Shown: positions 1 to 10,879 of the stretch, piece after piece
How positions within the stretch are numbered: the stretch's first letter is position 1
How the letters are laid out: each line of letters starts with the position of its first letter
NCBI GenBank assembly: GCA_013329865.1
Contig: DUJJ01000086.1
Location: forward strand, 1,423-16,840
Source of the DNA: Candidatus Poseidoniaceae archaeon
Lineage (GTDB): Archaea; Thermoplasmatota; Poseidoniia; Poseidoniales; Poseidoniaceae
Length of the DNA: 15,418 nucleotides
Reading direction: 5' to 3'
Position numbers and translations under genes: made by a program
Notes under the pieces: model-generated
Seen by the model: only the letters and a program-made list of their open reading frames with translations
The model's database searches: none
Told to the model about the DNA's origin: nothing

Positions 1-2625
1 ATGCTTTTGAACCCTCGACCCCAAGTGGGCACGATGCCCACCATAATTCACCCATTCCTAAATTCTGGGGTGGAGGCGAGAGCATATCAAATAAGGGCAG
101 CAAAAAGTGGCCTCTCATCATCGACTCTGATGGTTATGCCGACTGGTTTTGGTAAAACTGCAGTGGAATGGTTGGTAATGGCAGAGTTTCTAAAATTCGA
201 GCATGAAAAGATTGTGCTAATCGCACCAACTACCGGGCTGGTTGCTCAACAGCAACGGATGGCGAGAGAAATGATTAACCTAGAACCAGAGTATATTCTG
301 CGCTACACGGGAGAGACACCGCCGTCAAAACGAAGGGAAATATGGGATGTTGGTCGAATACTTATGGCCACTCCACAAGTTATTCGCAATGATGCTGCTA
401 GTGGAAAAATATCACTCAAGGATGTATCATTAATAATTTTTGACGAAGCACATCATGCGACAGGTAATCATGCTTACGCTCAGGTTGGAGATCTTTACCT
501 TAATCAAAATCAAAAAGGGTATACCCTGGCGGCAACGGCTAGTCCAGGGGCAACCAAATCGGCAATTTTAGAAGTGGCGAAACGACTTGGCATTGATAGA
601 TTTGATGTATCAATCAAAGACGAAGCCTTGCTAAAACCATACGCTGTTACCCTGCACAATGATGTAATTAATCTAGAACTACCGAATACTCTCAAATCGC
701 TAATTTACCCGCTGGAAGAACACCAGACCAGAGAAGTCGAAAGCATCCAGCGGATGGGTTTCATGGGACCGGTAAAAAATATCACCTCGAAAATCATAAC
801 AGACGCTCAGATGGCAGCTAGCCGGGCAATTAGCAGAAGAGACGCTAGGGGGTATAACGCAGCAAAAAAAATCGCAGACATTCGCAGAATGCACATGTTG
901 CTAGACTTACTAAAGACACAGGGGTTGAAAGCCGCATTAGCGTTTTTAGAGAAAGCTGAGGATGAAGGGCGCAGCGGTGAGAGAGTTACCAATAGATTCC
1001 TTGCAATACCCGTTATACATAACTTTAGAATTAGCGCCAGAGATCTTGATGAGTTACATCCAAAATCACAAACGGTTATTGACATGGTAACGGAAAAAGT
1101 CTCAAACAACCCATCTTCTAGAATCTTAATATTCACCGAGTATCGATATACTGTAAACAATTTAATTGAATCCTTATCGGGTGTTGACGGCGTCAAAGTC
1201 TCTAAATTCATCGGACAATCAACCAGTGGTAAACAGAAGGGTATGACTCAAAAACAGCAACTGGCAAGATTAGAGGAGTTTCGAAACGGGGAAATCAATG
1301 TGCTAGTTGCAACCTCAGTAGGCGAGGAAGGTTTAGACGTACCAGCAGCGGACTTGGTGCTAATGTATGAACCAGTGCCTAGTGCAATTAGGTCGATACA
1401 ACGCAGAGGTAGGACTGCACGGCAGCGTTCTGGCACTGTAAAGACGCTGATAGCGAATAACACTAGAGATGAGTATGTTAGTCGTGCTGCCCGGGTCAGA
1501 GAACGTAAAATGTATTCTAACCTATCAGATATTGAACGACAACAGCGATTGAATTTCCGAACCAACATGCGATCCAACAGTCTCGACGCTTTCAGCGTGC
1601 GGTTAGAGAATGAGGACATATCTGCGGAGGATTTTCTTGAAGCAGAAATATCTCGCCTTGAAAAATTATATCCAAAAAAACCGCTAACATCCGAGACGAC
1701 TGCTAGTAAAAGTCAGAAGACAACTACCCTGTCAGCAGTGGTCGACCCGAAAGACAAACGCCCCAGCAACCAAACCGGGTTAGACGATTTCTTTAACGAG
1801 CAAGGAGGACACTCAGTCAAAGAAAAGCAAGCGGCGATAGCAAACGTCGTGAACGGTATCGTTGATGACCTCCACGATGAAATCAATACTTCAGTAGTCA
1901 TAGATCATCGAGAAGCATCATCCACCTTGTCCGCATACATTAGCAGTCTCGGCGTAAACGTAGAATATCAGAACCTAGAAACTGGTGATATCTTGATTCA
2001 CAATGACATCATTATTGAGAGAAAGACTGCGAGGGATTTGTTGACATCAATTATTGATCAACGTCTGTTTAAGCAATGTTTGCGCATGAGAGACTCTAAC
2101 CAACAACCGCTTTTACTGATTGAGTTAGGTGAAATTGGTAACTCAGTCCATCCTAACGCAGTCATGGGGGCTCTAGCCCATATCACCCTAGACCTGGGTG
2201 TGCCGATAATTACAACAAAAGACTCAATGGAATCTGCTTATCTAATCTATTTAATTGCCCGAAAAATGAGTAAGTTCACACAAGCTATTAGAGATCATAT
2301 CGAATATCAACCGGTTGATGATGATACGATTAAACATCTTTGTGATGTTGCTTCTATAGAAATATCTGAAATGGTCAATCAGAGTAAAAACAAGGTAGAT
2401 TTTGTCAGCAGATGGTCTGCAACAGGGCGAAGTAAACAAATTGAATTATTGGTGAATATTACCGATATAGATTTTACCGTTTGTGAACGTTTATTGAACA
2501 AATATGATTCAATTGCTGGTGTCTTCAAAAATGACCTCAGTGTATTGCAGCATGATGTTGATGCCGCTGACTTGGAAAGGTTAAGCAAGTTCTTCTCGCC
2601 TAACCACCAATCAAAACTGCTCTAG
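1..2625 (+). CDS. hef: Hef-type DEAH helicase / ERCC4 nuclease (FANCM-XPF family)
   Basis: This is a structure-specific helicase-endonuclease expected to process stalled replication forks and branched DNA. The helicase half shows Walker A PTGFGKT (residues 47-53), DEAH (148-151), motif III TATASPG, motif IV ILIFTEYR (375-382), motif V SVGEEGLD and motif VI QRRGRTARQR (467-476). A helical insert lies between the RecA lobes at about 230-330, as in Hef/FANCM. After a low-complexity linker (about 560-630), the ERCC4 nuclease has DHRE (635-638), GD (662-663) and ERKTARD (673-679), so its acidic catalytic residues are intact. The C-terminal helix-hairpin-helix region (about 800-868) is recognisable only in outline. 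The linker carries QTGLDDFF (591-598), a textbook PCNA-interacting (PIP) box. At 874 residues it is slightly longer than typical Hef (about 750). The frame begins with ATG at base 1; Met12 (base 34) is an alternative start, and nothing upstream is visible. It is convergent with the next gene. Confidence 0.93.
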   Translation: MLLNPRPQVGTMPTIIHPFLNSGVEARAYQIRAAKSGLSSSTLMVMPTGFGKTAVEWLVMAEFLKFEHEKIVLIAPTTGLVAQQQRMAREMINLEPEYILRYTGETPPSKRREIWDVGRILMATPQVIRNDAASGKISLKDVSLIIFDEAHHATGNHAYAQVGDLYLNQNQKGYTLAATASPGATKSAILEVAKRLGIDRFDVSIKDEALLKPYAVTLHNDVINLELPNTLKSLIYPLEEHQTREVESIQRMGFMGPVKNITSKIITDAQMAASRAISRRDARGYNAAKKIADIRRMHMLLDLLKTQGLKAALAFLEKAEDEGRSGERVTNRFLAIPVIHNFRISARDLDELHPKSQTVIDMVTEKVSNNPSSRILIFTEYRYTVNNLIESLSGVDGVKVSKFIGQSTSGKQKGMTQKQQLARLEEFRNGEINVLVATSVGEEGLDVPAADLVLMYEPVPSAIRSIQRRGRTARQRSGTVKTLIANNTRDEYVSRAARVRERKMYSNLSDIERQQRLNFRTNMRSNSLDAFSVRLENEDISAEDFLEAEISRLEKLYPKKPLTSETTASKSQKTTTLSAVVDPKDKRPSNQTGLDDFFNEQGGHSVKEKQAAIANVVNGIVDDLHDEINTSVVIDHREASSTLSAYISSLGVNVEYQNLETGDILIHNDIIIERKTARDLLTSIIDQRLFKQCLRMRDSNQQPLLLIELGEIGNSVHPNAVMGALAHITLDLGVPIITTKDSMESAYLIYLIARKMSKFTQAIRDHIEYQPVDDDTIKHLCDVASIEISEMVNQSKNKVDFVSRWSATGRSKQIELLVNITDIDFTVCERLLNKYDSIAGVFKNDLSVLQHDVDAADLERLSKFFSPNHQSKLL

Positions 2626-3457
2626 TTCTGAGTTGAGCAAGTCTATCTGGGAAGTGACCAAAGGCGAAGGCTATCAATTCTGCCAGGTGGACAACTGGGA
2701 TGCTGGTGTTTTTACCAGTTTTCCTACCAGCTTTTGTTTGATAAGAATCTAGATTAGCATGCGATACAGTGCAAGCACTGACCATAAGATCAGCACCATT
2801 TGATTTAGCATCAGATATTACTGATGAAATAAGGGCCATGACTGGTTTTTCAAGGGTCAATAAAGATGGTGCACCGACACTTTGACACTTTAGGTCATAG
2901 CTTATTGGTGTGCCACCAAGAGCGATTATCAATTGTTCTAGATATGTTGGCATGAATGGATCGTCATTACCGCAGAACCCCTCTCTCTGCATGTTTGGGC
3001 CATAGTATGGAGCAATTTTGAGCTGTATTGGATTTACCACTGCATCATTGACCTTATCCAGACCAATCTCTTCTACTAAATAGTGAAGTAAGTGCCAGGA
3101 GTCTGATTCACCACGGTATTCGACCCCTGTCGAGCGGGCAATCAGATTGTTAAGTTGTGCGGCATAAACGGGATCGTTGCGGAAATCTTGCATAGTGTCT
3201 TTCATTATGCTGTGACTGGTAGCACACGTGGTCATTATGTCAAGACCTTTTTCTTCAGCAAGAGCAAGATTTCTGGCAACTAAAGCATGCTGTAGTTTAC
3301 TCGATGCTTGTTTGATTATGTTGCCACCATCACTTGTTGCCTCTGGTAGTTCAACAAGATCAATGCCCAAAGTCTTGCACAGTGGTTGAATACAATCCTC
3401 AACCTCCATTGACGCGGCTCTTGCAACATTACCAGGGTAGTAGGCAATTTTGGGCAT
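2600..3457 (-). CDS. HdrB-like (CCG-domain) protein with degenerate cysteine motifs
   Basis: A 285-residue protein of the HdrB / TfrB C-terminal / SdhE family, which normally binds noncubane [4Fe-4S] clusters through two CCG motifs and acts on heterodisulfide or passes electrons to quinone. Family landmarks are clear: YYPG near the N-terminus (6-9), ARNLALAEEKGLD (61-73), then the second repeat with YYGP (151-154), DDP (165-167), VGAPS (194-198), and DAKSNGADL before CTVSHANLD (229-237). The cysteines are mostly gone. YYPGC is YYPGN, CCG is SDG, CxxC is CATS, and in the second half YYGC is YYGP, CCG is SVG and CxxC is CTVS. Only Cys78 and Cys229 occupy ligand positions. I chose the ATG at 3457 over an in-frame GTG at 3466, because the GTG lies inside the ribosome binding site. 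The gene starts 9 nt after the flavodoxin-SdhB fusion stops, so the two are probably co-translated. It is probably a non-cluster-binding structural or altered-chemistry subunit. Confidence 0.85.
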   Translation of the reverse strand: MPKIAYYPGNVARAASMEVEDCIQPLCKTLGIDLVELPEATSDGGNIIKQASSKLQHALVARNLALAEEKGLDIMTTCATSHSIMKDTMQDFRNDPVYAAQLNNLIARSTGVEYRGESDSWHLLHYLVEEIGLDKVNDAVVNPIQLKIAPYYGPNMQREGFCGNDDPFMPTYLEQLIIALGGTPISYDLKCQSVGAPSLLTLEKPVMALISSVISDAKSNGADLMVSACTVSHANLDSYQTKAGRKTGKNTSIPVVHLAELIAFAFGHFPDRLAQLRTRAVLIGG

Positions 3458-3461
3458 GTAA

Positions 3462-3468
3462 ATCACTT
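3462..3468 (-). promoter_or_regulatory. Ribosome binding site of the HdrB-like gene, overlapping the upstream stop
   Basis: On the minus strand AAGTGAT lies 4 nt before the ATG at 3457. It matches six of seven bases of the archaeal AGGTGAT Shine-Dalgarno sequence. It overlaps the TAA stop of the upstream fusion gene (3467-3469), and the in-frame GTG at 3466 is part of it. This favours ATG 3457 as start and suggests translational coupling of the two genes. Confidence 0.6.
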
Positions 3469-5632
3469 AGAATCTTTGGTCTATTTCATTAAACAGCCCT
3501 ACAACTTGATGGTGATTCTTAACTTTTGAATTGAACATGTTCGGTATTTTGCCAATACCCGCTGGTGGTAGAATAAGTGCTTGCAGACTTCTGATAGGCG
3601 GACCACCAGTTCTGGTGAACCCTAATACCATTCTAGCGGAGACTCCATCGAAGATATTGCTAATCAAGCCTACTGGGCCCAAAACTTGACGGTATAGGGT
3701 GGTCTCATTCAGTTTACCTGTCCACTTCACACTACGACCATACCACTTGACTAGTCTGCCGTGAGGACCGCGATAATTAGTTTGATTCAGAATGTATGCC
3801 CTAACATCATTTAGCCCATTTGAAGCGGTTTTACCCTCCGGGCCATATCTTGAGATAGACGCTAAATCTGCTTCTCCCCAGACTCCTGTTGGATGGTTAA
3901 GTGAAGCAATTAATGAATTCTTATACTTCTCACTAGACCTCGGATCATTGACCCTATTCCAGCGTTGGAGATGGATACCGGGACCCTCATACTTCGAATC
4001 ATATGCAACCGTATCAGACATTGAATGAACCAATTGATAGGACATTACATCACTGGCTGTATGTAGTTTAACTGCATCCTCTGATTCCATGACACCTACT
4101 GCCATTCCGTTGATTAGATATTCTCCTTCACGTGGGCTAGAACTCATCCACGGCTTAGCCTTCATTCGGTTTTCCTCAAATTTAGAGTAATCGACCATCA
4201 AATCTCTGATTACTGGATAGCCAGACAGCGGTTCAATCTTAATTCTGCCATCTGCACTAACAACATCAGATATGCTGGTTGAGTCAGCTAATACCAACCG
4301 CCCGTTGACTCTGACGCCTGAGGTCGGCGAACCGGTTCCGTCGCCAGCCCTGAATGTCAAGCTGCCATCGACGTTGTTTTTGACTGCAGTGAGCATGTCT
4401 TGTATTGATGCATTTGCTGGTATTGCACAGACTACAGTATCCCATCCTGATTCAGCCGCAGTAGGGCAGTAACGGAATATTTCCAATGTGACTGTTAACT
4501 CTGCTTTGTTAATCACACCCGGAGCATAATCGCCAGAAACAACGTCATCGTCGCTACTGTTTCCGTATGCTTTCATTTGTTCTAGCAGTTCTATTTGTAG
4601 TGTTCCCGAAGAATCAACGCAGGCTATTTTCGGGAGTGCTTCTGCAACCCACAGTGACCACGGTGGTTCGAAATCGACATCACAGAGTTGAATATCATGT
4701 ACCTTACTTGCACCGAGGCTCTGATACTTTTCGTCCCAATCGACACCGGCTTTGCAGAACTCATCATAAGCGGTATCACCGATGGCGCATACGCTAAAAT
4801 GAACACCAGATAGAGATGGTCCCTGAGAGTTTACCGTCTGCCATAGCGACTCTGCGTTATCCGGCATTTCTCCCTCACCCCAAGTGGAGGTGATGATTAG
4901 GGTTCGCTTGTGAGTGGCCAGGGTAGACGTATCAAAACCGTCCATGTCATACACCTTGGGGACTAAACCGTAATCTGCGGCGAGTTTTGCTGTTTTCTCA
5001 GCCAGTCCTGCTGCATTGCCAGTTTGCGAGCCGAACAATATTGCTAGCGATCTATCACCCGACATCAGTGCGGCCAGCTCTTCACTTGCCTCGCCGGATG
5101 TTGCAACGGCACTGGCTTGGGTAGTGGTTGTTTCAGCAACAACTTCTGATTCATCAACCATGATGGTTCCGGTGTCTAGGTCTGACATCGCTTGAAGTGC
5201 TGAGTTCGCCCAAGATTGCCATGCAGGCTCGTAGTCAACGTCACACAACTGAATGTCGTGAACTCTCGTTGCACCAAGTTGGTTGAACTTTGCGTCCCAG
5301 TCAAGCCCAGCCTTGCAGAATTCATCATATGATGTATCACCGATGGCACAAATGGAGAAGTTGACTGAGCCGAGACTTGGATTTTGTTCACATGTTGAAA
5401 CCCAAATCGATTCAGCATTATCTGGCATTTCACCCTCGCCCCAAGTCGAGGTGATGATAAAAACACGCTTGGTGTCAGCGAAATTTTCAGGCTTTACGTC
5501 GCCTATGTCGACGACTTTCGCTTGTAGATTGAACTTCTTTGCTAATTTTGCGGTTTTGCCGGCGAGCTCTTCAGCGTTACCGGTTTGAGAACCGAAATAT
5601 ATTGTTAGTTGCCTGTCAGGAACCTCTGGCAT
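3467..5632 (-). CDS. Tandem flavodoxin-flavodoxin-SdhB-like fusion lacking Fe-S ligands
   Basis: A 721-residue soluble fusion. Residues 8-149 and 194-336 are two flavodoxin domains of the CysJ/cytochrome P450 reductase FMN type. Each has the FMN phosphate loop GSQTGNA, the STWGEGEMPDNAES loop and the IGDT(S/A)YDEFCKAG loop intact. They are joined by a Thr/Ala/Glu-rich linker (150-193). Residues 375-614 match SdhB/FrdB/TfrB, most clearly in IKIEPLSGYPVIRDLMVDYS (465-484), followed by KPWM, EGEYL and a YEGP segment where SdhB has YLGP. All cluster cysteines are missing: the [2Fe-2S] loop reads FRAGDGTGSPTSGVRVNGRL (427-446), and there is no cysteine from residue 403 to the end. A further 107 residues (615-721) are basic and unassigned. 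There is no NAD(P)H-binding domain. The start at 5632 is fixed by a GGGTGA ribosome binding site; an in-frame GTG at 5734 would overlap the thermosome stop and add unrelated sequence. The likely role is electron transfer by FMN on a cluster-free SdhB scaffold. That is inference. Confidence 0.88.
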   Translation of the reverse strand: MPEVPDRQLTIYFGSQTGNAEELAGKTAKLAKKFNLQAKVVDIGDVKPENFADTKRVFIITSTWGEGEMPDNAESIWVSTCEQNPSLGSVNFSICAIGDTSYDEFCKAGLDWDAKFNQLGATRVHDIQLCDVDYEPAWQSWANSALQAMSDLDTGTIMVDESEVVAETTTTQASAVATSGEASEELAALMSGDRSLAILFGSQTGNAAGLAEKTAKLAADYGLVPKVYDMDGFDTSTLATHKRTLIITSTWGEGEMPDNAESLWQTVNSQGPSLSGVHFSVCAIGDTAYDEFCKAGVDWDEKYQSLGASKVHDIQLCDVDFEPPWSLWVAEALPKIACVDSSGTLQIELLEQMKAYGNSSDDDVVSGDYAPGVINKAELTVTLEIFRYCPTAAESGWDTVVCAIPANASIQDMLTAVKNNVDGSLTFRAGDGTGSPTSGVRVNGRLVLADSTSISDVVSADGRIKIEPLSGYPVIRDLMVDYSKFEENRMKAKPWMSSSPREGEYLINGMAVGVMESEDAVKLHTASDVMSYQLVHSMSDTVAYDSKYEGPGIHLQRWNRVNDPRSSEKYKNSLIASLNHPTGVWGEADLASISRYGPEGKTASNGLNDVRAYILNQTNYRGPHGRLVKWYGRSVKWTGKLNETTLYRQVLGPVGLISNIFDGVSARMVLGFTRTGGPPIRSLQALILPPAGIGKIPNMFNSKVKNHHQVVGLFNEIDQRF
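4625..5611 (-). repeat. Internal duplication: two flavodoxin domains in one gene
   Basis: The segments 5186-5611 and 4625-5053 encode the first and second flavodoxin domains. By eye they share roughly 60 percent of residues over about 143 positions, with all three FMN-contact loops nearly identical. Nucleotide similarity is also evident over the TWGEGEMPDN stretch (around 4870-4900 and 5430-5460). This indicates an intragenic tandem duplication, with both copies under selection to keep FMN binding. Confidence 0.9.
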
Positions 5633-5643: not shown

Positions 5644-5681
5644 AATATTTCCAAACCGCCGTAGTCTTTGAAGGTTGCTTG

Positions 5682-5698
5682 CTCTCCCGTAGGGAGAG
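5682..5698 (-). terminator. Hairpin between thermosome and flavodoxin fusion genes
   Basis: A perfect inverted repeat CTCTCCC-3 nt-GGGAGAG lies 32 nt past the thermosome stop codon. On the minus strand no U-run follows it, so it is not a standard terminator in that direction; on the plus strand it is followed by TTTTATT, but no plus-strand gene ends there. It may be an mRNA 3'-end or processing element separating the highly expressed chaperonin from the downstream pair, or it may be chance. Confidence 0.35.
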
Positions 5699-5730: not shown

Positions 5731-7353
5731 TCACATCTGGAAATCGCCCATATCACCCATTTCGTCGCCCATAGCGACGCCCTTGGATGAAATGACATCA
5801 TCTATCCTCAGAATCATGACTGCGGTTTCTGTAGCAGATTGTATTGCCTGCTCCACAACTCGAATTGGTTCCAAAACATTTGCTGCTCGCATATCGACCA
5901 CGCCACCTTCGTAGACATTGATTCCCGCATTTGATTGGCCATCTGCGTGCGCTTTTCTAAGTTCGATGAGTGTGGTCACAGGATCAAGTCCGGCATTTTC
6001 TGCGAGAGTCCTGGGTATTATCTCAAGCGCTGACGCGAAGGCTTCGATTGCCATTTGTTCTCTGCCGCCAACAGTCTCCGCAAACGTTCGCAAATCTCTG
6101 GATAGCGCAGCTAACACACTTCCACCGCCAGTCAATACTGCGCCGTCTTCCCAAGCAACAGAAACAACCCCCACTGCATCGTCAAACGCTCGCCTAATCT
6201 CATCGACAACATGTTCAGTTCCGCCTCGAAGCAATACTGAGACAGATTTTGCTTCGGGGCAACCCGTAATAAAAGTCATTTCAGACTCACCTATTTTCTT
6301 CTCTTCAACCTTCTCTGCGTGACCCAAGTCATCAGCGGTAAGGTCGTCTAGATTTGTCACAATTTTACCGCTGGTCGCTTTCGATAGCGCTTCCATATCC
6401 GATTTCTTCGCTCTCCTGATGGCAAAAATACCAGCCTTAGCCATGTAGTGTTGAGCAAGCTCATCAATACCTTTCTGGCAGATCAACACGTTCGCACCCG
6501 ACTTGTGAATTTTATCAACCAAGCCTCTGATGTAATTTTCTTCCTCCTCTAGGAATTTTGAGAGCTGGTTTGGGTCGGTAATCTGTATTTTTGCGTCAAC
6601 TTCGGTCTTTTTGACCTCTATAGCAGAATTGACTAGAGCAATCTTTGCCCCTTTGATAGATCTTGGCATACCTGCATGAACTCTCTCTTTGTCGAGAATG
6701 ATTCCATCAATTAGTGTTGAATCTTTGATTGAGCCCCCCTGACGCTTTTCTACTTTTATATCTGAAAGATCGACGATTCTCTGATCTGACTCAATGATAC
6801 CAACTGCATTAACCGATCTGACGCAAATATCAGCCATAAACGACTTGACTGCTCCCGCAGACTTACCTGTAAGGGCTGTTTTAGCCACTTCCATAAGCAC
6901 TGAATCGTCATTTTGAGTCGCGATACCGTGACTATCCAATAACTCGACTGCTTTTTCTGCTGCAAGTCTGAATCCCTCACAAATAACTGTTGGGTGAACA
7001 TTCTGTTCGATTAAGTCCTCGCTTCTCTTCAATAGTTCGCCGGAAAGAACCACGGCTGTCGTGGTGCCATCAAAGCAGTGTTGTTCTTGGGTTTTTGCCA
7101 CCTCGATTATCATCTTCGCAGCAGGATGTTCAATGTCCATTTCTTTTAGGATGGTTGCCCCATCATTGGTTATTACGACATCACCCATAGAGTCAACCAA
7201 CATTTTGTCCATACCCTTTGGACCAAGGGTCGATCTTACTGCGTCGGCGACGGCTTTTGCTGCCGCAATATTGTTTGATTGTGCGGTCCTGCCGCGTGTT
7301 CTTTGAGTGCCATCTTTCAATATGAAAATCGGTGCTTGTCCATTACCATACAT
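5731..7353 (-). CDS. thsA: Thermosome (group II chaperonin) subunit
   Basis: This is an ATP-dependent cytosolic folding chamber of the TCP-1/CCT family. Its 540 residues are the usual length. Visible landmarks are LGPKGMDKM (43-51), NDGATIL (63-69), DGTTTAVVL (95-103), the apical and helical-protrusion region (about 215-370), the catalytic Asp of the DDAVGVV segment (392), the GGG nucleotide loop (409-411), NAGLDP (453-458), and a C-terminus rich in Gly, Met and Asp ([13 protein letters not shown]) that would project into the cavity. One oddity is that the normally near-invariant Gly of the GDGTT loop is Phe94 (sequence HCFDGTTT). The metal-binding Asp95 is kept. The ATG at 7353 follows a weak GAGG motif, and a TATA-like element lies upstream at 7416-7425. 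The gene could be any thermosome paralogue; the subunit letter is not resolvable here. Confidence 0.95.
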
Positions 7354-7415: not shown

Positions 7416-7425
7416 GATAAATTTC
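7416..7425 (-). promoter_or_regulatory. Candidate BRE/TATA promoter of the thermosome gene
   Basis: The minus strand reads GAAATTTATC: a purine-rich BRE-like GAAA followed by a TATA-like TTTATC, about 66 nt before the thermosome ATG. Transcription starting about 25 nt downstream would give a leader near 38 nt. It overlaps the stop codon of the upstream gene (7424-7426), so the thermosome probably has its own promoter. Short AT-rich matches are common, so support is moderate. Confidence 0.4.
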
Positions 7426-10400
7426 AGTTTTGCTGATTTTGCGACAGCCACATTTCGCCATAGGCATTCCATTGCTCCATAGTCCAACCTGCAGGCAGGC
7501 CGCTGTCAGGAAGTGGTGGCCCGGTTTGAACGGCGGGCTCGGTTGGCTGAACAACAGCCTGAGCTGGCGTTGGTGTAATGGTCGGAGTAACCGGTTCTGC
7601 GGGCATTTGTGGCGGCATCGATGCCGGAACACTAGCCGGTGGCCCAGACGGCACAGTTGGAGCAGAAATTACTGATTGGTATGTTGATGTGAGACTATCT
7701 TGATAACCATCCTGACCCCAGTTGGCATATTCATCGTCTTCTTCCTCACCACTACGCAAAATTCTCACCGTAACTACAATTCCACCAACAATGATAACAA
7801 TAAAACCAAGCCATGTTGCTGCACCAGCGAAATCAAATCCTCCAGCAGCGTCATCACTGGTTTCGACAATTATTTTCCTAAGTTGGACTTGAATGTTCGA
7901 TTGCGCCGCATCGCTGACAGTATCAGACCGTGCCCACAATATTATCTCTGAATCAAATATTGGATTTTCCAGAGTCTTCAACGTGTCCTCAGTAACCTCG
8001 AATCTGATGGTTACGATACGCACAGAATCATCGCCTGTTCCTAACACAAACTGCCGATCGCTACTATCAATTCTTGATTTATACCAACTACTAGAATTAC
8101 CATAATCAATATCCATCGAAACAGACTGTGCTGTCGAATATTGATTTCTGACTGTGACTTCGAGGACAACTTCATCTTCGAAATTATCGATAATCACCTG
8201 CTGTGATGGTAATATCTTCAACCACTGGTTCGAACTTCCAACAGAATATGTTGAGCCGCCGGTGGCTATGACTGTGTCGTCGTAGACGCTTTTACCGATA
8301 ATTACCATCTGCAGGTTACCGCTTACTCCAGTATCAAAGGAAAACTCTACTGTTACATTGTAACTTGCTCCGCTATCGATAATAGGGGTAAATTGACCAT
8401 CAACTAGGTTGGTAAATTGTGCATTCATACCTTGTGGTAAATTCAGACTCATGTCAAATGTGTCTGCGATATTTCCATTATTGGTTACCTCAAACGTCAT
8501 CGATTGAGCGATATCCCCTGGAATGTAAGATTGATCTGATATATCCGTTTCAACATCAACACTGGCAGTCTTCCTTATTTCTACTGGAATGACCTCGTTT
8601 ACTGTCAAACTCGGGTCGTCAACATTGGTTGCAGTAACAATTACCTCATAGAATCCTTCGGGAAGACCCGTTGGCATGGGCAATTTGAGGTAAAATGGCC
8701 ATGAACCATCCCATTCATCTAACAGAGGTGATTGTACGGTGTCGACATACGCTCCAGATTGGCGATATTTGAGCGGAAAATCGTTGGTCACAGTTATGTT
8801 ATATGATTCTTCATCGTTACCACTGTTGTGTAGTGTCATCAAAATTGACTTTTCCTGGTCATTAGCAAAACCCTCGACAAATAATCGACCATTGTCGTCA
8901 CTAAATAACGCTAAGCTGGCTTCTAGGTCAAAATCACGATAAATTGGGACATCGATTATTCTCGTCAACAGTGTAGTTCCTACAACATCTCCACTAGTTC
9001 TAGAGGCTCTAATGCTGAGATCAACTTGACCGGGTGAGGCCTGTTCCTCTGCAGAGACTAACAAATTTAGGTTCGCTGAAGTTCCTTTCAGCATGAATAC
9101 CGACGTTATCGCATTGCCTAACTCATCTTGGACTGTTCCAGACCACAGATCTTCGCTGAATGTCGCCGCAAGTTGGAATGTCGAATCCAGGTTACCCGTG
9201 TTGAACACGGTAAAAGGCAACAGTTGGGATTCACCAGGGTTCATAGTGAGAGCAATTTGGGGCGCAGTTGATGTCAGTTTAACGCTATACTGCGAGTTAA
9301 TTGACACCGTCGTTGTAACACGAGCCTTCTCTCCAGTGTTGGCTGAACTTGCATCGGTAAACCAAATTTCCCAGTCTTGAATTTGAACATCGGAACCGGG
9401 CGGTATCGATAAGTTAGCCCACACTTCAGTGGTCTCAAACGGGCCGATAGGAGGAATGACTACGTTGAAATCGTTGTCATTGGGGTTTGTCGTATCTAAT
9501 CTCAGTTGAGGGACCACCGGGTCCATCCAAGATGCATTGGTAACATTAGTTTGGGCACGGAATTGGACGTTCTTGTAGCCATTATTAGTCACCAGACATT
9601 TCCAAGAAACAAGATCATTGGGCACTGTTTCAAAGCCACCAACTGGATTGTCACAGTTTGCTGTGAGGGTATATCCGTCTACCTTGGATACCCCAAACTG
9701 GACGAAGTCATCAAAGTGCATACCTTGGGTCGCACCCGAGCTATCGGAACGCAATACAACACTGAAACTCCAAGAATTACCACCAAGCAGTAAATCTGGA
9801 TTCAACAGTGCGGGGTTTTGTGACCAGACAGTCTGTGGGTCCCATGAAATATTCTTCCACTGCCCTGGCACAGGGCTGGGGTTGATTGCTGCAACATCCC
9901 AGTTTACCGATTGCAATGGGTCAGAAAAGTTGCCGTTGCCATTCCAAAATTCAAGGTAGGCTGCATCTCCTGCACCCATTGTGCCCCAAGCTTGCAAGTG
10001 CACCTGAGTAGAAATGTATTCTTGGGATTTGAATAATACCCTGCAAACCCAGATACCTTCAATTTGGGCAAGACCCGAATCTAAGGCATCACCACTGCAG
10101 TCCTGGGTTGGATTTCTATAGGAATATACCAGCCTGTCAAAAGCACTTGATGGATAAGTATTACCCCCCGGCAGTGACATTCGCCAGTGAGAATCACCTA
10201 CTGCGGAATCGCCCGAATCCTCATACCAAGAACCGTATTCGTTGGCATCACCACCTCCAATGGGGTAGCGTGCTGGTCTGAATGTTGTCGTAGACCCTGA
10301 TGCCTCACCGTCCATAAGGTCCTTGTATACTGCAATAGGGACCTGCTTTTCCATGATATCATTGTCATTTCTGTCATCATTGGTGAAATTGACCGATGCT

Positions 10401-10879
10401 CTGAGTATTAAACCGCCTGTCAGTTCATTATTCGTCGTATTCAAAACTGAATGGGCAACTTGTGGATTCCACAATATGGCATTTTGATCCTTACCGCCAC
10501 CCGGCATTAGATCAGTAGTCCAGGTGAATGTTTCAATAACAAAGCCAATTGGATGAACAATCTCTAGTTTGGCGTCGGTTTGCTTCTGCGTTCCGGTAAC
10601 GGCACCATCTTTGTAAACTGTGACTATTACTTCGATCTCATCATTTTGTAACAAATAACCCTGAATTGAACCGTCGGGTTGAATCCACCTTTCGGTAGAC
10701 GATGATTCATTACCAAGTTCGATGCTGAAGATACTAAAATCGTCTTTAGAGCCTCCACGTGCTGATGCTGCCTCGACATCAGGAACATAATTTAACGCTA
10801 GAGTTTGCAATAATAGTAGCGTTACAAGGGAAATAGAAGATAGTCTTCGCATTAGCATCAACAACCATCCCATGAGCAT
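7424..10879 (-). CDS. Large secreted, C-terminally membrane-anchored beta-rich protein
   Basis: A 1151-residue cell-surface protein of unknown specific function. The N-terminus has an Arg-Arg n-region (11-12) and a hydrophobic core (14-30) ending near AEAAS, consistent with Sec secretion. The ectodomain is Asn/Thr/Ser-rich with many N-glycosylation sequons. Residues about 195-395 look like a jelly-roll ligand-binding domain ending in HFDDFVQFG. From about 520 to 1000 there are repeated Ig-like/NEW3/CARDB-type modules, marked by NTGNLDSTFQL (560-570), NSGNDEESYNI (685-695) and NNGNIADTFDM (800-810). One transmembrane helix (about 1019-1041) is followed by an acidic stretch, a Pro-rich linker (1074-1130) and a terminal LPAGWTMEQWNAYGEMW motif (1128-1144). 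The start could also be Met8 or Met10, since no strong ribosome binding site precedes ATG 10879. It follows the six-helix protein gene by 51 nt. Confidence 0.85.
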   Translation of the reverse strand: MLMGWLLMLMRRLSSISLVTLLLLQTLALNYVPDVEAASARGGSKDDFSIFSIELGNESSSTERWIQPDGSIQGYLLQNDEIEVIVTVYKDGAVTGTQKQTDAKLEIVHPIGFVIETFTWTTDLMPGGGKDQNAILWNPQVAHSVLNTTNNELTGGLILRASVNFTNDDRNDNDIMEKQVPIAVYKDLMDGEASGSTTTFRPARYPIGGGDANEYGSWYEDSGDSAVGDSHWRMSLPGGNTYPSSAFDRLVYSYRNPTQDCSGDALDSGLAQIEGIWVCRVLFKSQEYISTQVHLQAWGTMGAGDAAYLEFWNGNGNFSDPLQSVNWDVAAINPSPVPGQWKNISWDPQTVWSQNPALLNPDLLLGGNSWSFSVVLRSDSSGATQGMHFDDFVQFGVSKVDGYTLTANCDNPVGGFETVPNDLVSWKCLVTNNGYKNVQFRAQTNVTNASWMDPVVPQLRLDTTNPNDNDFNVVIPPIGPFETTEVWANLSIPPGSDVQIQDWEIWFTDASSANTGEKARVTTTVSINSQYSVKLTSTAPQIALTMNPGESQLLPFTVFNTGNLDSTFQLAATFSEDLWSGTVQDELGNAITSVFMLKGTSANLNLLVSAEEQASPGQVDLSIRASRTSGDVVGTTLLTRIIDVPIYRDFDLEASLALFSDDNGRLFVEGFANDQEKSILMTLHNSGNDEESYNITVTNDFPLKYRQSGAYVDTVQSPLLDEWDGSWPFYLKLPMPTGLPEGFYEVIVTATNVDDPSLTVNEVIPVEIRKTASVDVETDISDQSYIPGDIAQSMTFEVTNNGNIADTFDMSLNLPQGMNAQFTNLVDGQFTPIIDSGASYNVTVEFSFDTGVSGNLQMVIIGKSVYDDTVIATGGSTYSVGSSNQWLKILPSQQVIIDNFEDEVVLEVTVRNQYSTAQSVSMDIDYGNSSSWYKSRIDSSDRQFVLGTGDDSVRIVTIRFEVTEDTLKTLENPIFDSEIILWARSDTVSDAAQSNIQVQLRKIIVETSDDAAGGFDFAGAATWLGFIVIIVGGIVVTVRILRSGEEEDDEYANWGQDGYQDSLTSTYQSVISAPTVPSGPPASVPASMPPQMPAEPVTPTITPTPAQAVVQPTEPAVQTGPPLPDSGLPAGWTMEQWNAYGEMWLSQNQQN

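Follow-up and report, generated by a model that had tools for sequence, protein, structure and literature searches.

Results

The A/B module and its domains

We describe here two adjacent genes, called A and B, in a stretch of 15,418 nucleotides from a Candidatus Poseidoniaceae archaeon (assembly GCA_013329865.1, contig DUJJ01000086.1, positions 1,423 to 16,840; hereafter the window, whose own numbering is used throughout). A encodes two flavodoxins, which carry flavin mononucleotide (FMN), followed by a domain (S) related to the iron-sulfur (Fe-S) protein SdhB, and B encodes a protein related to HdrB and SdhE. The Fe-S ligand cysteines are gone from S, and B keeps two of ten; the pair is found throughout the order Poseidoniales, where the first carrier domain of A is either a ferredoxin or a flavodoxin. 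The features are as follows.

3467..5632, minus strand: gene A, flavodoxin 1 – flavodoxin 2 – SdhB-like domain S, 721 amino acids, ATG at 5632
5183..5617, minus strand: flavodoxin (FMN) domain 1 of A, the site of a [4Fe-4S] ferredoxin in 84 of 135 classified genomes
4628..5062, minus strand: flavodoxin (FMN) domain 2 of A, in nearly all orthologues, missing in L172
3470..4567, minus strand: domain S of A with the C-terminal extension, zero Fe-S ligand cysteines
4283..4342, minus strand: former [2Fe-2S] loop of S (A residues 431-450), ligand positions D, S, S and D
3842..4048, minus strand: former [4Fe-4S]/[3Fe-4S] region of S (A residues 529-597), invariant S539 and E587 in place of cysteines
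2600..3457, minus strand: gene B, HdrB/SdhE-like, 285 amino acids from its ATG, CCG cysteines gone save C78 and C229
3224..3226, minus strand: C78 of B, first cysteine of the N-terminal CxxC, invariant in 100 of 100 orthologues
2771..2773, minus strand: C229 of B, first cysteine of the C-terminal CxxC, invariant in 100 of 100 orthologues
5662..5698, minus strand: conserved intergenic element 5' of A, a hairpin at 5682-5698 and a box AGCAAGCAACCTTCAAAGACTA at 5662-5683

The reading frame of A extends upstream to a GTG at 5734, overlapping the thermosome gene; the start was set at the ATG at 5632 because relatives and the first domain begin near this position. The stop of A and the start of B share one frame with the stop codon between them, and A and B are two separate open reading frames in the window. 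A preliminary description of this DNA had noted coupled genes, SdhB-like then HdrB-like, in the order of TfrB of thiol:fumarate reductase, and this observation is confirmed. Profile searches recovered two Flavodoxin_1 stretches in A (PF00258, E 7e-56, over the family cut-off), and the FMN phosphate loop (P-loop) is intact in both, which bears out the two intact FMN domains described earlier. The P-loop pattern recurs in 44/44 first and 43/44 second flavodoxins of orthologues with two flavodoxins, and the flavodoxins of A are predicted to bind FMN. The FAD and NADPH domains PF00667 and PF00175 are missing from A, and both are present in a separate reductase, FNR.

Domain S (about 365 residues) gives an SdhB-type Fer2_3 match (E 3e-13), and its matches to the SdhB, MfrB and TfrB models all lie under their cut-offs (88 bits for SdhB, TIGR00384; 33 bits against a cut-off of 385 for TfrB, NF004898); nor does it have the cluster cysteines of TIGR00384. 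B resembles HdrB (TIGR03288, E 3e-37, 128.7 bits, cut-off 345) and the MfrE/SdhE anchor (NF042965, E 2e-29, 103.3 bits, cut-off 500), again under cut-off, and matches solved HdrB chains (E 3e-30), which places it in the HdrB fold. With 11 cysteines taken as the reference count of SdhB cluster ligands, the window S has 0/11 of those found in three outgroup SdhB; 98 of 103 S orthologues have none and five have exactly one. The window B retains C78 and C229 of the ten CCG cysteines (2/10). The earlier claim that cluster ligands are gone holds in the window. Among B orthologues, the C-terminal CCG is broken in 100/100 and the N-terminal CCG is intact in 6/100. In source annotations A goes under the name 'succinate dehydrogenase/fumarate reductase-like Fe-S protein/flavodoxin', and B is labelled 'heterodisulfide reductase subunit B'.

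An order-wide syntenic pair derived from SdhB–SdhE

A survey of 145 genomes of Poseidoniales recovered A in 140, and B directly adjoins it in 77 of 80 named loci; of the remaining three, one has B in a split frame, one has an ambiguous base in the stop and one ends with its contig. The earlier reading had been staked on the pair being conserved together, and it survives this check. On the minus strand the order is thermosome gene, A, B, with a Hef-type helicase/nuclease gene converging from the opposite side. The thermosome and Hef neighbours recur in 72 and 75 of 79 named loci, respectively, and both are present at all 40 loci from other genera and the second family; the ribosomal protein genes L3, L4, L23 and L2 follow at one locus (L083), and ribosomal clusters recur at others. 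The SdhA, FrdA or HdrA neighbour sought on the preliminary description's advice does not appear beside the pair, where the genes are those for the thermosome, Hef and ribosomal proteins. The module is 93% identical to its counterpart in a Euryarchaeota metagenome-assembled genome (MAG); most of the remaining named loci come from Poseidoniales or Euryarchaeota MAGs. Where the synonymous rate dS could be estimated, the ratio of nonsynonymous to synonymous rates (dN/dS) was 0.016 (against L035) and 0.030 (against L043) for S and 0.010 (against L043) for B, other comparisons being saturated in dS and given no ratio. Purifying selection thus acts on the A/B pair, which is syntenic across the order.

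Outside the order, a draw of 389 genomes from the phylum yielded only ordinary SdhB-like matches (E 2e-17 or weaker), and the seven listed genomes of the sister group within the class gave none. The nearest outside relatives of B, 40-41% identical, belong to one family (f6) and have an adjoining SdhB (e.g. G246); at L200 the order is sdhA-sdhB-sdhE with all cysteines kept. The relatives L198-L200 keep all CCG cysteines, and the SdhB of L200 (S200) keeps all 11 ligands. From these adjoining SdhB genes and the arrangement at L200, S and B are most likely descendants of an SdhB–SdhE pair. As the Thermoplasmatota relatives lie in sdhA-sdhB-sdhE-type neighbourhoods with all cysteines, 'SdhB–SdhE-derived' fits better than the earlier label 'TfrB-like', of which the domain order stands.

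One MAG has the sole fused A–B (L185), with the C-terminus of A missing, and offers weak evidence. An apparent fusion at L057 and L015 was rejected as proof of contact, the stop codon there having an ambiguous base (TNA). At these loci annotation pipelines may call a false 943-residue protein.

Repeated exchange of ferredoxin and flavodoxin at the front of A

The front of A was surveyed in 145 genomes: a ferredoxin is present in 84 and absent in 51, and ten that could not be classified (five with no match, five cut off) were left out. The 135 genomes were scored by hand on the match ranges; sequences confirmed 41 of the 84 ferredoxin and 46 of the 51 ferredoxin-less states with no conflict, and one diverged ferredoxin that the match range had missed (G154) was scored present from its sequence. 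The domain is a single-cluster [4Fe-4S] ferredoxin (Fer4_13, E 8e-10 in L083), with CxxCxxC in 47/47 sequences and the fourth cysteine in 46/47, the odd one having an ambiguous base. In some genomes A has one flavodoxin only. At L172 (G044) the ferredoxin is joined straight to S with zero flavodoxins, the reverse of the flavodoxin-only forms.

On the best S+B tree (103 rows, 100 with a state), parsimony requires at least 16 changes of ferredoxin state, a count that may include recombination between lineages. Among 97 orthologues scored at both sites, 51 lack ferredoxin and CCG alike, 40 have the ferredoxin alone and six have both, and a CCG without ferredoxin occurs in 0/97. The preliminary description's Fe-S-free unit is therefore true of this lineage and of those 51 of 97 scored orthologues, but does not extend to the whole family, given the 84/135 genomes with ferredoxin and the 6/100 B proteins with a CCG.

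The flavodoxin tree (156 rows, 147 columns) has many unresolved forks; flavodoxin 1 makes ten changes on the best tree, five of them forced by supported branches, with gains and losses undistinguished, and for these reasons we claim no number of flavodoxin 1 origins. In G428, flavodoxin 1 and the FMN domain of FNR are 90% identical, unlike in G050, where flavodoxin 1 is closest to its own flavodoxin 2; flavodoxin 1 and the FNR FMN domain are thus closely akin in places.

FNR and free-standing flavodoxin change with the front domain

FNR is one CPR-type FAD/NADPH reductase per genome, at a fixed locus. It has an N-terminal FMN domain in 24 genomes and lacks it in 111, ten of the 145 genomes being left out because FNR was missing or partial. 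All 24 FMN-fused forms occur in genomes whose A is ferredoxin-less, and none occurs in the 78 ferredoxin genomes whose FNR could be classified (Fisher p 8e-13); short FNR splits into 24 ferredoxin-less and 78 ferredoxin genomes. Because the Fisher test takes no account of relatedness among genomes, an independent-pair test is fairer: over 16 pairs, a mean of 6.2 differed in the same direction, 0 in the opposite direction and 9.8 not at all (median p 0.031, range 0.008 to 0.125). A free-standing flavodoxin follows the same split among the matches listed (down to about E 3e-35, weaker ones being unseen), with 23/51 ferredoxin-less against 8/84 ferredoxin genomes (Fisher p 4e-6) and independent pairs dividing 8.0 to 0.3 in this direction (p 0.012 in the median, up to 0.289). 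The best-linked partner of A/B is FNR rather than SdhA.

Biotin carboxylase lies 3' of FNR, within one to three genes, at all 21 loci examined, and no electron acceptor was evident among the FNR neighbours at these loci. At L195, L239, L246 and L253, FNR stands a few genes from a phytoene-desaturase-like gene (judged by eye) and conventional sdhAB; in other genomes it is away from both.

Other redox enzymes of the genomes

A conventional SdhB with its cysteines is encoded elsewhere (over cut-off in 50/59 genomes), so A/B is not the cell's complex II. Flavoproteins of PF02910, a family that holds other enzymes too, occur in 59/59 genomes, and 2-oxoacid:ferredoxin oxidoreductases of the POR family in 53/59 and in 15/15 good ones. 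Thioredoxin reductase (TrxB) is over cut-off in 53/59 genomes; there is no need for A/B as its substitute, and this role was rejected. Sulfite reductase was likewise rejected as the acceptor of the CysJ-like FNR, the sulfite/nitrite reductase family PF01077 being found in 0/59 genomes. PF01077 is absent from these 59 genomes although most carry a CysJ-type reductase.

Surroundings of the module

The hairpin 5' of A reads CTCTCCC-TAC-GGGAGAG. The element, with its box AGCAAGCAACCTTCAAAGACTA, has one match in the window as against 0 in 200 shuffles; 29 of 286 loci have it exactly in a shorter form, and related boxes, judged by eye, lie 5' of A in other genera. In folding, the whole stretch does not surpass its shuffled versions (z -0.75). 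By eye, the element is likely A's own promoter. The thermosome gene is adjoined by a gene for a large secreted or membrane protein (7424-10879, minus strand, 1151 amino acids) whose position is conserved order-wide.

Discussion

Read from sequence, the module is one of fused domains that have lost their cluster ligands, kept in synteny, with a swap at the front that is linked to FNR and to a standalone flavodoxin. The explanation that we favour, and to which we give an even chance, is a cluster-free scaffold derived from SdhB–SdhE that carries tethered ferredoxin or flavodoxin domains, forms an electron hub with FNR and was shaped by iron sparing. A and B would be the remnant of an SdhB–SdhE pair, of the lineage of E-type succinate:acceptor and thiol:fumarate reductases, that no longer has an SdhA partner or Fe-S wiring. 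S and B would hold a pair of one-electron carriers on tethers, first ferredoxin or flavodoxin 1 and then flavodoxin 2: FNR would exchange electrons with the first, which would exchange them with the second, and the S–B platform would dock a further partner. The electrons of this low-potential hub might come from NADPH, or possibly from 2-oxoacid:ferredoxin oxidoreductase with exit as NADPH. Scarcity of iron would have removed the Fe-S sites stepwise. Those of S and the C-terminal CCG would have gone before the radiation of the Poseidoniales; the N-terminal CCG would have followed in the two main families, and the front ferredoxin would have been lost on many occasions. We infer here the physical contact, the flow of electrons with its direction, and the part of iron as driver.

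Iron sparing, already proposed in the preliminary description, fits, and we favour it as the driver since three separate traits shift from iron to flavin together: the ferredoxin/flavodoxin swap, the concerted change of FNR and the standalone flavodoxin. The interpretation given there is, as a whole, partly supported.

Several points weigh against the electron hub shaped by iron. The operon has no partner gene, the FNR link is statistical, with 24 ferredoxin-less genomes having short rather than fused FNR, and over pairings the independent-pair p reaches 0.125 for FNR and 0.289 for the flavodoxin, which among the matches listed also occurs in eight ferredoxin genomes. The link to iron supply is indirect, through co-occurrence with this flavodoxin. 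The predicted S–B interface comes from a model of one chain in which the stop codon of A was read as Q, and C78, C229 and other cysteines may leave room for an unusual metal site. Finally, oxygen tolerance predicts much the same pattern as iron sparing.

An aerobic surface-ocean group could have shed oxygen-labile clusters irrespective of iron supply, and the sites lost are those expected to go: a labile [4Fe-4S] ferredoxin and CCG clusters exposed to solvent. The conventional SdhB nonetheless retains its clusters, as the genomes retain the POR-family oxidoreductase, and the swap is accompanied, among the matches listed, by the standalone flavodoxin. Flavodoxin marks iron stress in other organisms; it also responds to oxidative stress, and this point is not decisive. 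We regard oxygen as an unlikely driver, though the strongest of the alternatives.

Rather unlikely is an iron-free, flavodoxin-dependent disulfide reductase, in which the tethered flavodoxin would feed the old HdrB site and C78 and C229, both invariant, would form a redox dithiol replacing the two non-cubane clusters. In Hdr the catalytic iron is bridged by the other cysteine of each CxxC, which B has lost, and the ordinary thioredoxin reductase of most genomes also speaks against such a function. We think it still more doubtful that the whole SdhB–SdhE complex was turned iron-free stepwise into an NADPH reductase, FMN carriers and a C78/C229 disulfide reductase site; if true, the most common surface-ocean archaea would have an iron-free flavodoxin-driven disulfide reductase. 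An iron-free analogue of TfrB or SdhBE still working on fumarate or succinate with an SdhA-type flavoprotein encoded elsewhere is very improbable: the origin of S and B and the universal but mixed PF02910 family would suit it, yet a cluster-free S could not relay SdhA electrons by the known route, the SdhA adjoining conventional SdhB already has its own partner (L195) and no SdhA lies near A/B.

The proposed SdhB–SdhE-derived hub has relatives of several kinds. In TfrB (NF004898/PRK06259), which consists of an SdhB domain followed by an HdrB domain with TfrA as its partner, the order is that of A/B, but A/B are two chains with their ligand cysteines gone, ferredoxin or flavodoxin domains in front and no TfrA neighbour. 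SdhB–SdhE (MfrB–MfrE) of E-type succinate/fumarate reductases are separate adjacent genes in the same order and the closest in descent; they differ in keeping the cysteines, in adjoining an SdhA-type gene and in having no carrier domains. The flavodoxins of A are closest in type to NADPH diflavin reductases such as CysJ and P450 reductase (TIGR01931, 244.7 bits); FNR is a diflavin-type reductase with or without an FMN domain, whereas A itself is without the FAD and NADPH domains. SdhB-like and HdrB-like folds also share one chain in a solved Helicobacter pylori structure (3kwl), 14% identical to S–B, which was a whole-chain Foldseek structural match and not found by sequence profile; one paper's table lists it as a protein of unknown function.

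Passages of a metabolic survey of marine group II (MGII, the Poseidoniales) mention canonical complexes I and II and RnfB and contain no 'flavo' words (PMC6336850). Searches of one open-access library, which does not hold subscription journals or preprints, gave no description of the module (passages covered include PMC11237513, PMC13096325, PMC13083937, PMC7039249 and PMC3397514). Replacement of ferredoxin by flavodoxin under iron limitation is well known, as described for phytoplankton, and follows the same logic of an iron carrier giving way to an FMN carrier; here it is a domain that is exchanged, at one position within orthologues of a multidomain protein, and a partner gene changes to match. 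What appears new is that this swap recurs at a single domain of an SdhB–HdrB unit stripped of iron, and that a partner gene takes part.

The evolutionary record of the module is unusually clear. Folds of the complex II and heterodisulfide reductase types survive cluster loss under strong selection, and because the folds are kept, family names such as SdhB, HdrB or 'Fe-S protein' mislead in MGII annotations. Inside one gene there is a natural series in which Fe-S sites are removed and ferredoxin gives way to flavodoxin many times, with a matching change in a second gene, which opens iron sparing, as a matter of protein architecture, to testing in abundant, uncultured marine archaea; the ferredoxin and flavodoxin forms could be counted against dissolved iron in ocean metagenomes.
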